The notes beneath the pieces were generated by a model. It was given only the letters and a program-made list of their open reading frames with translations, did no database searches and had not been told where the DNA came from. Below, piece after piece: positions 4,526-31,182 of a stretch of 44,552 nt of DNA. The stretch comes from a virus. The position numbers and the translations under genes were made by a program. Numbering within the stretch: position 1 is the stretch's first letter; every line of letters starts with the position of its first letter. The stretch lies in the IMG/VR virus record IMGVR_UViG_3300030419_004518, positions 14,084 through 58,635 of that record, one strand, 5' to 3'.

Positions 4526-5308
4526 ATGGCAACTTATAATAAAAACAGGGTTGAACCTTTATACTTGAGAATATCTCAACCAAGTACGGAAGAACCGTTA
4601 CCCACTGCTAAAAGTATTCTGAGTAAACCCTCGGTTACCAGTCAGTTTAAAGTTTCGTTATTTCTTCAAAGAGAAGTTTCTAGTCAAAGTCTTGATGGGT
4701 ATTTAACTAGGTGTGGTATATTTGATGTTAATAGATCTACTGGAGATAGTTATGATTTCTTGGCCTCTGAAGCAATACTTCCAGGAACAAACTTTGACAT
4801 GACAGAACAACCTGGTTCTTACCAAGGTATGCTAGAGTATAATGCAACAAGAAGAATATTTCCTGATTTTGAAGTAACCTTTTATGTTGACTCTGAATAT
4901 AATATTATTCGTTTATTCGAAGAGTGGATGAATTATGCTAATCCTTTGTATGGAAGTGATGGTCAGTATATTGGTTCTCGTGATGGACAGAAATCATTTT
5001 TAGATAATAATTCTTATTATAGAATTCGTTATCCAAATCAATATAAGAGAAGAGTTGCTGTAACAAAGTTCGAAAGAAACTTCCTAGAGAATCCTAACTA
5101 TGGTGACTTTGGTGAGTATAATCAGCAACCAATGCTAACCTATGAATTAATTGATGCGTTTCCTAAACAGTTAACATCTATTCCTGTTTCTTATGATGGA
5201 AGTTCTTTAACTCAAGTTACTGTTGTTTTTGGTTATACTAGGTACATAACTATTAAACATAATAATCAGGGTAATAATTATTCTGATAATGATGATACGT
5301 CAGGTTAA
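4526..5308 (+). CDS. 54: gp54-like baseplate tail-tube initiator
   Basis: The 260-aa protein has a tail-tube-like fold pattern. There is a short N-terminal segment, then SQFKVSLFLQ, FLASEAILPGTNFDMTEQPG (about 79-98), EYNATRRIFPDFEVTFYVDS, IIRLFEEWMNYANP, YRIRYPNQYKRRVAVTKFER, and YELIDAFPKQLTSIPVSYDG followed by a V.FGYTRY ending. This order is shared by T4 gp19 and gp54. The missing gp19 itself, the adjacent gp48 and gp26, and the marine myovirus context favour gp54. Its role would be to form the first tube ring on gp48. It is the first gene of the long plus-strand late unit and has no evident Shine-Dalgarno. A second tube protein is the main alternative. Confidence 0.75.
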   Translation: MATYNKNRVEPLYLRISQPSTEEPLPTAKSILSKPSVTSQFKVSLFLQREVSSQSLDGYLTRCGIFDVNRSTGDSYDFLASEAILPGTNFDMTEQPGSYQGMLEYNATRRIFPDFEVTFYVDSEYNIIRLFEEWMNYANPLYGSDGQYIGSRDGQKSFLDNNSYYRIRYPNQYKRRVAVTKFERNFLENPNYGDFGEYNQQPMLTYELIDAFPKQLTSIPVSYDGSSLTQVTVVFGYTRYITIKHNNQGNNYSDNDDTSG

Positions 5309-5361: not shown

Positions 5362-6087
5362 ATGCCTTTACCAAAAATATCTACCCCCACTTATGAGTTG
5401 GTTTTACCATCAACAGGGAAGAAAATAAAATATAGACCATTCCTTGTGAAGGAAGAAAAACTTTTAATACTTGCATTAGAAAGTCAAAATTCAAAACAGA
5501 TAACTAATGCGGTTAAGAATGCATTGAAAGAATGTATTATTAGTCGAGGTGTTAAAGTTGAATTACTTCCTACATTTGATATTGAATATCTATTCCTCAA
5601 TATTCGTGCAAAATCTGTGGGAGAAGCATTAGAATTAGTTGTTACTTGTCCTGATGATGAAGAAACTACAGTACCAGTAACGGTTTATATTGATGAGATT
5701 GAAATTCAAAAATCTAAAGATCATAAACAAGAAATACCCATCGATGGTAAACTTACCTTAAAGATGAAGTATCCATCTATGAATGAATTCATCAATAATA
5801 ATTTTGATTTTAATGTTGATGAGGATTCTCCAGTTGAAAAGACATTTGAGATGGTAGCATCATGTATTGATGTGGTCTATGATGAAGAAGATGTGTGGTC
5901 AGCATCTGATTGTACTAAAAAAGAATTAAATGATTGGGTCGATTCTTTAAATTCACAACAGTTTAAAGAGATTGAAAAGTTTTTTGAAACAATGCCAAAG
6001 TTGGCTCATACTATAAAGGTTACTAATCCAAAGACGAATGTTGAAAGTGAAGTTGTATTGGAGGGACTGTCAAGTTTTTTCGAATAA
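5362..6087 (+). CDS. 26: gp26-like baseplate hub / tail assembly protein
   Basis: The 241-aa product matches the T4 gp26 (T4_baseplate) family. It opens MPLPKISTPTYELVLPSTGK, then KYRPFLVKEEKLLILALES (about 23-41), followed by AL..CI, LPTFDIEYLFLNIRAKSVGE, and a C-terminal helical part with W..SDCTKKELNDWVDSLNSQQF and the end SSFFE. In T4, gp26 is needed for hub assembly. The family resembles tail assembly chaperones in size and in its position before tape-measure-type genes (inference). The last codons are AGT TTT TTC GAA TAA. These contain a slippery heptamer followed by a stem-loop, so part of the product is probably extended into the next ORF. There is no strong Shine-Dalgarno. Confidence 0.85.
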   Translation: MPLPKISTPTYELVLPSTGKKIKYRPFLVKEEKLLILALESQNSKQITNAVKNALKECIISRGVKVELLPTFDIEYLFLNIRAKSVGEALELVVTCPDDEETTVPVTVYIDEIEIQKSKDHKQEIPIDGKLTLKMKYPSMNEFINNNFDFNVDEDSPVEKTFEMVASCIDVVYDEEDVWSASDCTKKELNDWVDSLNSQQFKEIEKFFETMPKLAHTIKVTNPKTNVESEVVLEGLSSFFE

Positions 6088-6117
6088 GTATGGCTCATAT
6101 AGATCTTGAGTCATACT
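6075..6117 (+). promoter_or_regulatory. Programmed -1 ribosomal frameshift signal at the gp26 end
   Basis: The slippery heptamer T TTT TTC (6075-6081) is in the gp26 zero frame as X XXY YYZ. After a 5-nt spacer (6082-6086) comes a stem: AGTATGGCTCA (6087-6097), loop TATAGATCT, TGAGTCATACT (6107-6117). That is 11 pairs with one G-U. A slip at the heptamer continues as CGA ATA AGT ATG in the frame of the 58-aa ORF, with no stop between. The stem also buries that ORF's ATG (6090-6092). Confidence 0.72.
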
Positions 6118-6266
6118 ATAAATTGAATTTTGCTTTGATGCAACACCATAAATATAGCTTAACTGAGATTGAAAACATGATGCCGTGGGAGAGAGAAATC
6201 TATCTTGCACTTTTGAATCAATATATTGAAGAGGAAAATTTAAAAGCAAAACAAGAAAATATTTAA
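6090..6266 (+). CDS. 58-aa tail-chaperone extension ORF, probably translated as a gp26 frameshift fusion
   Basis: The 58-codon frame lies -1 relative to gp26 and starts two bases after its stop. The product contains LESYYKLNFALMQHH, then LTEIENMMPWEREIYLALL (24-42), then an acidic/basic helical end. The pattern 'L.EIE.M.PWERE.Y..LL' is what I expect in the short C-terminal part of G/GT-type tail assembly chaperones. There is no Shine-Dalgarno, and the ATG is inside the stem-loop after the slippery site, so independent initiation is probably poor. A -1 slip on T TTT TTC would give a fusion of 240 gp26 residues, three junction residues (R-I-S) and these 58, about 301 aa. The stop TAA directly abuts the next ATG. 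The alternative is a separately started small protein comparable in position to T4 gp51. Confidence 0.75.
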   Translation: MAHIDLESYYKLNFALMQHHKYSLTEIENMMPWEREIYLALLNQYIEEENLKAKQENI

Positions 6267-7490
6267 ATGGCAATCTCTGCTTCTATTATTAGTTCATTTT
6301 CTTCTCCTAAACTTAAAGGGGGAATGGATGCTGCGAAAAAATCCATAAGAGCAAAGACTTCCAATATGAAGTCTTTAATTGGACAAATTTCTACAACGCC
6401 AGGAAAGGATACTGATAAAAAAATTAGTGGTCCTACTAAAGCCTTCTTGGAAACATTTGCTGATGATGATACAGAAAAGTTAATTAGAGTAGGTGTAACT
6501 AGATTAAAGGATACTATGATAGAGATCTATGATCTCTCGACTGTTTTAGTTTCTGCAATTAAAAATATTTCTAAAGGTCTTACTAGTGGTAAAGGTGGCG
6601 GTGGTGGAAAGAAGGGCAATCCATTAGCAAATATTGCTCAACTTCTTGGTGGTATTACAGCTGGTAGATGGGGATTGTCAAAATTATTTGGTAAGAAAGG
6701 AGATATTAAAGTACCTAAAAAACCAAAAATAACTGATGTTAAAAAACCAAAGAGTCCAAAAAAAATTATTAAAAAATTAAAAAAACCAACTGTTAAAAAA
6801 CCTAGTCGTGGTATGTTTGGTCAGTTTAAAGACAACCTACCTACAAAAAATGTGAAAAAAACTAAATTTACAATGCCAAAATTGAAGAATCTTAAAATCT
6901 CAAGGAAAGGTTTAATTAGGACTGGTGCTTTGATGCTTGGTAGCATAGGACTTGGTGCTGGTCTTGGTATGGCATCAGAAGATACAACAGTAGCAGAAGG
7001 TCTTGATGGAGTGGATGGAGTAAGTGGAGTGGATGGAGTGGATGGAGTGCAAGGTAAGGCAGGTGTTGATGGTTTGGATGGTAAGGATAAAGTTTCTATT
7101 AAAAGTGAAATTGTTAATATTGATGAATTAACTGATGAGAAACAATCAGTTATAGCAAAAACTGAAACATCTACTACGTCAGAACCAAAGAGATCTAATT
7201 TCCCAAAAGGAGAATCAGGTACTAGAAAATTTGTTCAGGCAAAGAAAGAATTTATAAAACTTAAGAATGAAGAGAGGGGTGTTAAATCTTTAGATTCTAA
7301 AGAAGATAAACCCAATATTGTAGTTCTTCCTTCTGGACAAAATGTAGCACCACAAGTGTCACAACCACAAAAAATAATGAATCTGAATGGTTCTGCACAA
7401 AATGGTCCAGATATTGCATTCTTACCATCTTCTAAATCTGATAGTTTTGGTGCTTTTGAAACAAGAATGATCTATAATATCGTAAATTAA
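6267..7490 (+). CDS. Putative tape-measure or hub-associated structural protein with a collagen-like segment
   Basis: I do not recognise a named family. The 407-aa product has a helical N-terminal region (about 1-110, with LRVGVTRLKDTMIEIYDL-like heptads), a Gly run, and a very Lys/Pro-rich linker (about 150-215). Next come one hydrophobic segment (GALMLGSIGLGAGLGMA, about 222-238) and ten Gly-X-Y triplets at 245-274. A C-terminal tail carries IVVLPSGQN and IAFLPSS and ends in FETRMIYNIVN. It starts immediately after the stop of the 58-aa chaperone-like ORF and precedes the hub genes, which is where tail genomes place the tape measure. T4 gp29 is longer (590 aa). The next gene shares the 'VVLPS' tail, so the two may divide the tape-measure or hub-core task. 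This function is inference. Confidence 0.7.
   Translation: MAISASIISSFSSPKLKGGMDAAKKSIRAKTSNMKSLIGQISTTPGKDTDKKISGPTKAFLETFADDDTEKLIRVGVTRLKDTMIEIYDLSTVLVSAIKNISKGLTSGKGGGGGKKGNPLANIAQLLGGITAGRWGLSKLFGKKGDIKVPKKPKITDVKKPKSPKKIIKKLKKPTVKKPSRGMFGQFKDNLPTKNVKKTKFTMPKLKNLKISRKGLIRTGALMLGSIGLGAGLGMASEDTTVAEGLDGVDGVSGVDGVDGVQGKAGVDGLDGKDKVSIKSEIVNIDELTDEKQSVIAKTETSTTSEPKRSNFPKGESGTRKFVQAKKEFIKLKNEERGVKSLDSKEDKPNIVVLPSGQNVAPQVSQPQKIMNLNGSAQNGPDIAFLPSSKSDSFGAFETRMIYNIVN
6999..7088 (+). repeat. Collagen-like Gly-X-Y triplet block
   Basis: Ten consecutive in-frame GGN-NNN-NNN triplets encode GLD, GVD, GVS, GVD, GVD, GVQ, GKA, GVD, GLD, GKD. The DNA repeat unit GGAGTGGAT recurs. The block follows a hydrophobic segment directly. 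Such triplets form trimeric helices in other phage fibre proteins. Confidence 0.85.
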
Positions 7491-29900: not shown

Positions 29901-31182
29901 AAATATAAGCATGAGTGATCATATGATATTTGGTAGGCACAATCACCAATGGGCTCAAATGAATGAAGAAGGAGTAGAATTAAGGGAATCTTGGCATTCA
30001 ACAAATCCACGAAGAATGATGAATATAGATTATAGAATTCCTCAATTGAGAAATCCTGGTGGTGGATATTGTTCTAAAGTTAATATAGATGTTGAAGACC
30101 CAATATTTACAACTGATGTTGAATTAATTGAAATAAAAAATGGATTACCAGATGATACTGGAATTGGTCGTTTTTATCCAATCCCTACGGCAACTGGTAC
30201 TTCAAATTATTTTCTTAGATTGAAAGGATCTTTACCTACAGTTAATTATGGTGGTGGACAAATAAGTTTCCAATTGGATTCTGATCCACCTGAAATTGAT
30301 CCAGATACTGGATTAACATTAAAAGTGATTGAAGGTCCATCACGAAATACTAATACTTATGTATCAGTAACTCCACTTACTGAAGGATTTACTGGTTATG
30401 TTGATAATCAAGATGATATTATTATTGATGATGGTGGATCAGTAAAATATAATACAATTGATGATCTTGGACTTAATGTTACTTTCAGTTATATAATGAT
30501 TGAACAAAATTTTGGTTCTGAATTATGGGGTGGAACTAGTGATAATACTAATCTAGGACCAACTGGTAATGAAGATAAAGCAGTTAGAAGAATTACGAAT
30601 CTTACATTAGCAATGCGTCCAGTTGCTTGTAGTTATAGAGCACCAAGTGGTTCATTAAACAGAATATTTGGAACTATAAGAAATAGAAAACTTTATAATT
30701 ATAATCCATTTCCATTATATTTTGTTGCAAAAACTATGGATAATGCAGATATTAATAATATAACCATAAAGGAAACGATAGGTGATTATAGTAAAACAGT
30801 GGCATTACCATTATATGTTAATACTGGAAATAATACTGGATCAGGAGATGATAAGTATAATACATCTATTGTGCTTGATGGTGCTGATGCGGAAAGTGCT
30901 CCTACTCATTTTGATCCATTAACTAGATTATCTTCTTCTGAAGTGGATATTCAAAATGAACAACCATTAAGAGAAGGATTTAAAGTTATAGATACTTTTT
31001 ATGTTGGTGCTAATGAAACCAAAGAAGTTGATATGACTAAGATTTTTGGTGCAGATAGAAATGTCATTACTCCAGACAATATGAATCTTGAGGCAACATT
31101 TGTAACTGCAAAAAAACTAGATGGTGCTCAAGCATCCGATACTGGACTTATTGAGACTACTCTAAGTTTAAAGGAACAATAA
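26953..31182 (+). CDS. Large baseplate-associated protein with an RYQPG domain, second paralogue
   Basis: The 1409-aa product repeats the landmarks of the gene before it: EVSSTLLGVNRAETQLSLF (about 270), SRRVFRYQPGRISGFTFGV (about 496), VSMYKIEFGWYGAIGARFYA and YVPVGNGEARWVVLH (about 624-660), and IVKYGASYYIDGGDEGTV (about 694). The C-terminal half is unique. It includes a Cys/His-rich stretch (CKACPGFGHVH, then FGTHKNISMSDHMIFGRHNH around 980-1000) and a final DTFYVGANETKEVDMTKIFG segment. The start is well placed, with GGGAGGAG at 26936-26943, 9 nt upstream and inside the previous gene. It probably forms a peripheral baseplate complex with its paralogue. Metal binding by the Cys/His part is possible but unproven. 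Confidence 0.8.
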   Translation: MANGGKDVRLGDDKRPVSLIPGDTEVLYNIANGAVLTDAFGNPLVTEVDNYNIADVTMAKATSVNFTSKDNPYFRIVDSVVATGLTAICANLDVEVGGNNNPPLVLRAHGAGTVGVGTILPQADGNNVTWYDYSLYGGPGNTGAGVTNGTLGVATDKAGYRSIYNPVAGDLAEWPIVRVNSDLGSRRNVIYIDNVGIFTAFGATVGDRIESDITPDGTIISDISHNSRVVLSNDYTGITTNLNVRITRSKPTILKSSATWKIAEQFKESSEVSSTLLGVNRAETQLSLFSNVSSYGIDTDEFEVFSFNGGRSIGSWERRANLIYGSRYRGRSQEETRESGIKLEAFPTPYTYPFGPKYDRIGLYNATLFTQYRDFIEMGNDLHAIYNSANYSSYPQTWKDRFLPDTVAKVVVGTGELDNDVQYTAGIATSFARIDTWTDTWRDLGNNELKDPVTEETLTFASINQILKDNGKTSDRTGDNTRPGYSVAPKRYALMQSRRVFRYQPGRISGFTFGVRTSEESRDGSYIEWGITNPTDQYVFRIDKGNISIIRRSTIPLSSDALKLSGMTQADQVNITTGNVFDADSETGDPTSYWTTEIPREKWSGDRLNGNGPSKHTLRPTNVSMYKIEFGWYGAIGARFYAYVPVGNGEARWVVLHTIVIENQMGEPCLQDSYFRLTYTVDVYNQAKLKTPQYIVKYGASYYIDGGDEGTVQIYSTSSGLKTISGISSETTLAVKPKDVIYNNQGVGIPNKKIIMPTKMNVSSDSLAEVKTVVCKACPGFGHVHTPSINTGVNGRTYAAGEITFSDTDEITITDNDDSLFTEEDIGAKIIAPSIYNCYIGDLEGRNVDPNTGIVSYTTAKLVGWKYIGYGTSERNIASNGVDEIPVLNRATTPDSIDYIPLAEYNHGTIRLSNFTGEVSSPYKLTGSKIEIQFANPDRQDDFGHFADFAIGVTDLEPTNRDDVEKTFEHWKTPGETGFGTHKNISMSDHMIFGRHNHQWAQMNEEGVELRESWHSTNPRRMMNIDYRIPQLRNPGGGYCSKVNIDVEDPIFTTDVELIEIKNGLPDDTGIGRFYPIPTATGTSNYFLRLKGSLPTVNYGGGQISFQLDSDPPEIDPDTGLTLKVIEGPSRNTNTYVSVTPLTEGFTGYVDNQDDIIIDDGGSVKYNTIDDLGLNVTFSYIMIEQNFGSELWGGTSDNTNLGPTGNEDKAVRRITNLTLAMRPVACSYRAPSGSLNRIFGTIRNRKLYNYNPFPLYFVAKTMDNADINNITIKETIGDYSKTVALPLYVNTGNNTGSGDDKYNTSIVLDGADAESAPTHFDPLTRLSSSEVDIQNEQPLREGFKVIDTFYVGANETKEVDMTKIFGADRNVITPDNMNLEATFVTAKKLDGAQASDTGLIETTLSLKEQ
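29033..29075 (+). repeat. 43-nt identical block shared with the paralogous gene (copy 2)
   Basis: Second copy of the block at 25289-25331. It encodes IVKYGASYYIDGGD in the paralogue. Third codon positions are also identical, unlike most of the two genes. Confidence 0.9.

Follow-up and report, generated by a model that had tools for sequence, protein, structure and literature searches.

How might a marine T4-like phage obtain both a short and a long tail chaperone when gene 26 is followed, in another frame, by nothing more than the small domain known as gp51? The question is raised by a 44,552-nucleotide stretch of viral DNA (analysed whole, and called the window below), which comes from a 92-kb virus record. 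There the gp26 open reading frame (ORF) starts with the ATG at 5362, ends with the TAA at 6085-6087, and has a 3′ end that reads AGT TTT TTC GAA TAA. The features on which the answer depends are these, in window coordinates:

4526 to 5308, plus strand: tail-tube-like gene directly upstream of gp26 (PF23849 Phage_TTP_2, E 4.4e-17; phrog_45 tail tube, E 6.9e-28)

5362 to 6087, plus strand: gp26, predicted short tail assembly chaperone and non-shifted product, 241 aa (PF12322 T4_baseplate, E 4.6e-76; phrog_150 baseplate hub, E 1.5e-81)

6060 to 6065, plus strand: internal Shine-Dalgarno-like GGAGG(G), putative upstream stimulator (GGAGG at 6060-6064, with 10 nt from its end to the heptamer)

6075 to 6081, plus strand: slippery heptamer T TTT TTC in X XXY YYZ phase, recognized by its sequence (TTTTTTN in frame in 330/335 related loci)

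6078 to 6266, plus strand: -1 extension, made of F-R-I-S and the 58-aa gp51 domain, C-terminal part of the predicted long form (phrog_634, E 1.3e-27)

6085 to 6087, plus strand: 0-frame gp26 stop codon TAA, 10 nt past the heptamer start

6087 to 6117, plus strand: hairpin, putative downstream stimulator (5′ arm 6087-6097, loop 6098-6106, 3′ arm 6107-6117; 11 bp, one G-U pair)

The original prediction placed a T TTT TTC heptamer in frame at the end of gp26 and held that the -1 frame is open from there into a 58-codon ORF, for a fusion of about 301 aa. Both statements proved correct. The heptamer is found at 6075-6081, and a ribosome that had slipped on it would read TTT TTT CGA ATA AGT ATG GCT..., in other words FF-RIS-MAHIDLE, in a frame that stays open until 6266, the predicted fusion thus counting 240 + 61 = 301 aa. 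The 58-aa domain encoded in -1 matches phrog_634, labelled “baseplate hub assembly catalyst” (gp51). It also matches positions 241-278 of phrog_150, the last 40 or so of this gp26-family profile (E 1.1e-6), which implies that some members of the gp26 family carry the domain in fused form. Among the window ORFs of at least 100 aa, gp26 is the sole case with TTTTTTN in frame within the last five codons. Four codons short of its end, a 1409-aa ORF has an in-frame TTTAAAG (window position 31167), which was dismissed as chance, since the -1 frame soon closes and the following gene starts at an ATG of its own, in a different frame. After gp51, positions 6267-7490 are occupied by a 407-aa lysine-rich ORF with collagen-like Gly-X-Y repeats and weak PF01391 and phage collagen-like tail matches.

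The junction was then compared among relatives at two depths. A near set is made of the 80 closest loci, from viral contigs, plus the window's own record, and a wide set adds five further queries and named phages to reach 335 usable loci. The queries used for this collection were single proteins, an alignment of 14 gp26 proteins being too divergent to scan with. Complete junctions (n=326) were grouped into 157 clusters at 85% identity. Every locus of the near set has an in-frame TTTTTTC placed exactly 10 nt ahead of the gp26 stop, with a gp51 homologue in -1. In the wide set, whose loci have common ancestry, 330 of the 335 carry an in-frame TTTTTTN (C in 227, T in 68, A in 29 and G in 6), and all 332 gp51 domains that could be assigned lie in -1 with respect to gp26. 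Domain homology starts exactly at the slip codons of the heptamer in 329/329 measurable loci; the profile behind this count was built from junctions having the heptamer in the two commonest places and read from the heptamer, and is therefore biased to start there, but the match begins at the heptamer also where it sits in other places. From the heptamer start to the gp26 stop, the distance varies from 7 to 34 nt across loci without the heptamer ever leaving the start of the domain, as in RHph_I1_18, where TTTTTTA lies 34 nt upstream of the stop and at the start of the domain. Four loci (L242, L243, L245 and L092) have a gp26 that runs 31-34 nt beyond the heptamer start, so that their short form has an extra tail, the gp51 domain still running from the heptamer. 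All 326 junctions are free of -1 stops over the first 20 codons, and the stretch from the heptamer to the usual ATG, read in -1, gives FFR-I/L/V-x in most marine loci and is conserved in character. A conserved heptamer in an alignment of these junctions had been named in advance as something that would support the frameshift, and it is indeed present wherever the gp51 domain was found beside gp26, bar one lineage.

Upstream of the heptamer, the window carries a GGAGG that the original prediction overlooked. Over 80 junctions, pairing with the anti-Shine-Dalgarno sequence of the ribosome forms a sharp peak at this very position, with z about -17 against a synonymous-codon null (like all those used here, drawn from pooled codon usage). 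Junctions that encode the Glu as GAA and not as GAG usually have GGG for the Gly that comes next, so that GAGGG is replaced by GAAGGG; the pair reads as two ways of keeping the same pairing. The peak is common to the TTTTTTC, TTTTTTT and TTTTTTA classes, is weaker in several phages of other families, and is slight in Marzo and RHph_I34. Lying 25 nt upstream of the ATG at 6090, the GGAGG is too distant to be the ribosome-binding site of that codon, and its spacing would fit a frameshift stimulator, not a start site. The earlier statement that there is no Shine-Dalgarno sequence is hence true of ATG 6090 and misses the element 10 nt before the heptamer. A literature search returned no paper linking an internal Shine-Dalgarno sequence with phage-tail frameshifting, a result that says little, as subscription papers were mostly outside its coverage.

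On the other side of the heptamer, the predicted stem of 11 bp, with one G-U pair and a 9-nt loop, was recovered just as described: it pairs 6087-6097 with 6107-6117 and begins 5 nt past the heptamer, and the segment 6082-6125 has a minimum free energy of -14.7 kcal/mol (z = -5.4 against dinucleotide shuffles). This exact stem had to be rejected as a universal conserved element, at least 9 of its 11 pairs being present in just 39 of 82 junctions, or roughly one in two close relatives. Different hairpins form just downstream of the slip site in other lineages. For the 36 nt beginning 12-15 nt past the heptamer start, folding energies reach a mean z of -2.8 to -3.2 versus the synonymous-codon null; 72-73% of junctions have z < -2, and 92% have z < -1 at +15. 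The same null reveals no folding excess 45-75 nt further downstream. Judged by these sequence comparisons, the formation of a hairpin just past the slip site is under selection in TTTTTTC loci; the small TTTTTTT and TTTTTTA classes gave no sign of hairpin selection close to the site and a weaker effect further downstream. Within a clade of 34 sequences, chosen for having the stem, there are two compensatory pairs and a covariation score above all 500 shuffles, with pairs changed on both sides not more numerous than in shuffles, which amounts to modest covariation support for the stem in its own clade. Of the conserved, compensating stem that was originally anticipated, what stands is a selected ability to form a hairpin, together with the two compensatory pairs of this clade, and what falls is the generality of the precise stem, which is lineage-specific.

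Could such a site have arisen by chance, or be used by something other than a slipping ribosome? The gene is AT-rich and its C-terminal Phe is invariant in the protein, so that a run of T might be thought to come for free. Yet, of the 49 Phe-Phe pairs located elsewhere in gp26, 40 are encoded by TTC TTT and none by TTT TTC, in-frame TTTTTT is met at 16 of 66,287 codon positions elsewhere in gp26 homologues as against 330 of 335 loci at the site, and the synonymous positions of the site are fixed, including the T that precedes the Phe codons. A chance origin of the heptamer is refuted by these conservation data, and the probability that heptamer and stem together are accidental appears negligible. 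Transcriptional slippage, in which RNA polymerase would slip on the T run and change the frame in the mRNA itself, could take advantage of homopolymeric runs that attain 8 T in some relatives. We hold it to be highly improbable: the window and its nearest relatives have only T6 then C, T6 is short for polymerase slippage, and a slipping polymerase needs neither a Shine-Dalgarno-like element nor a hairpin, both of which are found here at ribosome-compatible spacing.

There is also the possibility that gp51 is a separate small protein, translated by ribosomes that terminate at the TAA at 6085-6087 and restart at ATG 6090 through translational coupling. Here the window offers a TAA-GT-ATG geometry, with the ATG placed 2 nt past the gp26 stop, near enough for some free gp51 to be made; moreover, gp51 has its own CDS in GenBank annotation, and an overlapping TAATG is present in three phages that lack the heptamer. 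As an account of the locus this is nonetheless very unlikely. Over the 14 codons that follow the heptamer, an ATG is missing from 55 of the 157 clusters, and 29 lack every one of ATG, GTG and TTG; the homology extends through the slip codons; the heptamer is fixed and it is the stop that varies in position; the gp51 of T4 is a genuine fusion (see below); and ATG 6090 has no Shine-Dalgarno sequence at the right distance. The stem does cover this ATG, as had been noticed, and it is the sole ATG only upstream of the conserved domain, not in the whole ORF as had been claimed. In general, gp51 cannot come from a separate start, even if such a start may add some free gp51 where an ATG exists. The three phages without the heptamer, Cygsa01 (L088), K476 (L094) and SD25 (L095), have a shorter T run together with the overlapping TAATG; in Cygsa01 and SD25, gp51 is encoded in -1, and a coupled start or some other way of slipping may operate in these phages. 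In the tree they form one supported clade (99/99), so that loss or replacement of the canonical site is probable there, and they establish that the gp51 domain can persist without the heptamer. Conservation of the heptamer and of the -1 frame, along with the lack of that ATG in many relatives, supports the -1 frameshift that was initially proposed.

We are therefore left with a predicted -1 frameshift that is about as certain as comparative genomics allows. That a single gene 26 yields the short and the long tail chaperone by a -1 slip is very probable, and the Shine-Dalgarno-like element and the hairpin are its probable stimulators. Most ribosomes would stop at 6085-6087 and produce the 241-aa short form. 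A presumed minority would move back by a single base at T TTT TTC, with the two Phe codons re-pairing in -1, and these ribosomes would read on through the gp51 domain to yield the 301-aa long form. By pairing with the anti-Shine-Dalgarno sequence, the GGAGG, along with the hairpin 5 nt downstream, would most likely stall and strain the ribosome on the slip site in a dnaX-like manner. The products would be a TAC-N (short, like lambda G) and a TAC-NC (long, like lambda GT), and by analogy both forms of the presumed chaperone would hold the tape measure and recruit tube subunits.

What indicates that these are tail chaperones? An AlphaFold2 model of gp26 (44 sequences) has a pLDDT of 87.6 and a pTM of 0.81. 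For residues 1-92, the best VIA-align matches are 3fgx (Z 8.1), the HK97 tail assembly chaperone 2ob9 (Z 7.7) and YqbN 3klu (Z 7.2), at a level where a Z of about 8 can be chance. We take YqbN to be a prophage chaperone of the same kind. Since the second-ranked match is a named tail chaperone that scores well above unrelated entries, the modelled comparison is supportive of a TAC-like fold for the N-terminal part. Foldseek alone gave no significant PDB match for the model, its E-values being weak, and a sequence-profile search of solved structures found no relative of gp26. As for the gene context, relatives name the tail-tube-like upstream gene tail tube or gp54; a profile search of the two genes downstream detected no tape-measure match, and in RHph_I1_18 a gene annotated as tape measure comes after one small ORF. 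PMC3004832 lists T4 gp26 and gp51 among the hub assembly chaperones, and gp51 as required yet absent from the particle. A tail-chaperone role is thus likely for the gp26 and gp51 products, and the comparison with lambda G/GT drawn at the outset has held up, the modelled N-terminal domain of gp26 folding most like known tail assembly chaperones.

T4 itself suggests where the system may have gone. Its gp51 (249 aa) matches the full length of the gp26 profile, C-terminal domain included, and is a natural fusion in one ORF, whereas its gp26 (208 aa) matches without the C-terminal domain. The two proteins share detectable similarity (E 2e-6), and by sequence they are paralogues, gp26 corresponding to the short form and gp51 to the long one. 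In a rough tree with long branches, gp26 and gp51 of T4, Aeromonas phage 31, FL15 and RB43 lie apart from all single-gene sequences (98/97). T4 gene 26 (L098:7803-8429) ends in RGLKEFFELL, thereby keeping the GLKEFF C-terminal motif of the frameshift genes, and its FF is encoded by the non-slippery TTC TTT, which looks like a defused former slip site. The simplest reading of these sequences is that duplication replaced frameshifting in the T-even lineage. We lean, with some reserve, toward a broader scenario in which marine T4-like phages have a full dnaX-like signal, the Shine-Dalgarno-like element being held and the hairpin rebuilt in each lineage, and in which the two-gene system of T4 arose by duplication from an ancestral frameshift, with TTC TTT as its fossil.

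Frameshifting of this gene family is not new to the literature, although the original prediction was aware of no description for gp26 of marine T4-like phages. T4-like tail chaperones and poly-T slip sites are already cited to Vladimirov, Gautam and Davidson (Virology 2022): as reported in PMC10885494, some T4-like phages have a short gene and a long fused gene in place of frameshifting, and as reported in PMC12846349, poly-T slip sites occur in T4-like TAC-N genes. The three-part signal of Shine-Dalgarno-like element, heptamer and hairpin is, as such, possibly undescribed. Many records of cyanophages and other T4-like phages have gp51 as a separate gene or miss it, and reading it as a frameshift extension would correct these annotations. 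A 2010 survey gave cyanophage gp51 about 20% of the normal length and found it absent in Aeh1 (PMC3037559). In Aeromonas phage Aeh1 (NC_005260), the gp51 domain is in fact present at 118834-119013 on the minus strand, beside gp26 on the same strand and 78% identical to that of phiAS5. Both the short cyanophage gp51 and the “absent” Aeh1 one would be explained if gp51 is the frameshift extension of gp26, the Aeh1 domain adjoining gp26.

How does this locus compare with known systems? Conserved tail-gene frameshifts of the lambda G/GT kind were reportedly described by Xu, Hendrix and Duda in 2004. As in lambda G/GT, a -1 frameshift close to where the gene for the short chaperone ends would add a C-terminal domain, and just as G follows V, gp26 comes after a tail-tube-type gene. 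Unlike lambda, the heptamer is T TTT TTC instead of G GGA AAG, and the Shine-Dalgarno-like and hairpin elements are clear. In E. coli, the dnaX signal is tripartite, with an upstream Shine-Dalgarno-like element, a slippery heptamer and a downstream hairpin. The window has the same arrangement, with the Shine-Dalgarno-like element about 10 nt before the heptamer; by dnaX-type standards, both an element some 10-14 nt upstream and a hairpin a few nt downstream are present. The differences are in the heptamer (T TTT TTC versus A AAA AAG), in the product, lengthened here and shortened in dnaX, and in the hairpin, whose sequence here turns over between lineages. For the tail chaperone of the Vandenendeviridae and Andersonviridae (phage Adele; PMC12846349), a slip motif rich in T has been reported close to the 3′ end of TAC-N, the -1 frame being uninterrupted across many genomes, although that motif is GTTTTT and the virus families are different. 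Finally, T4 gp26 (TAC-N) and gp51 (TAC-NC) belong to the same families as the proteins discussed here (PF12322; phrog_150 and phrog_634) and come as short and long forms, but T4 uses two genes for the two forms where the window phage has one gene and a predicted frameshift, a natural comparison between making a short and a long chaperone by frameshifting and making them by gene duplication.
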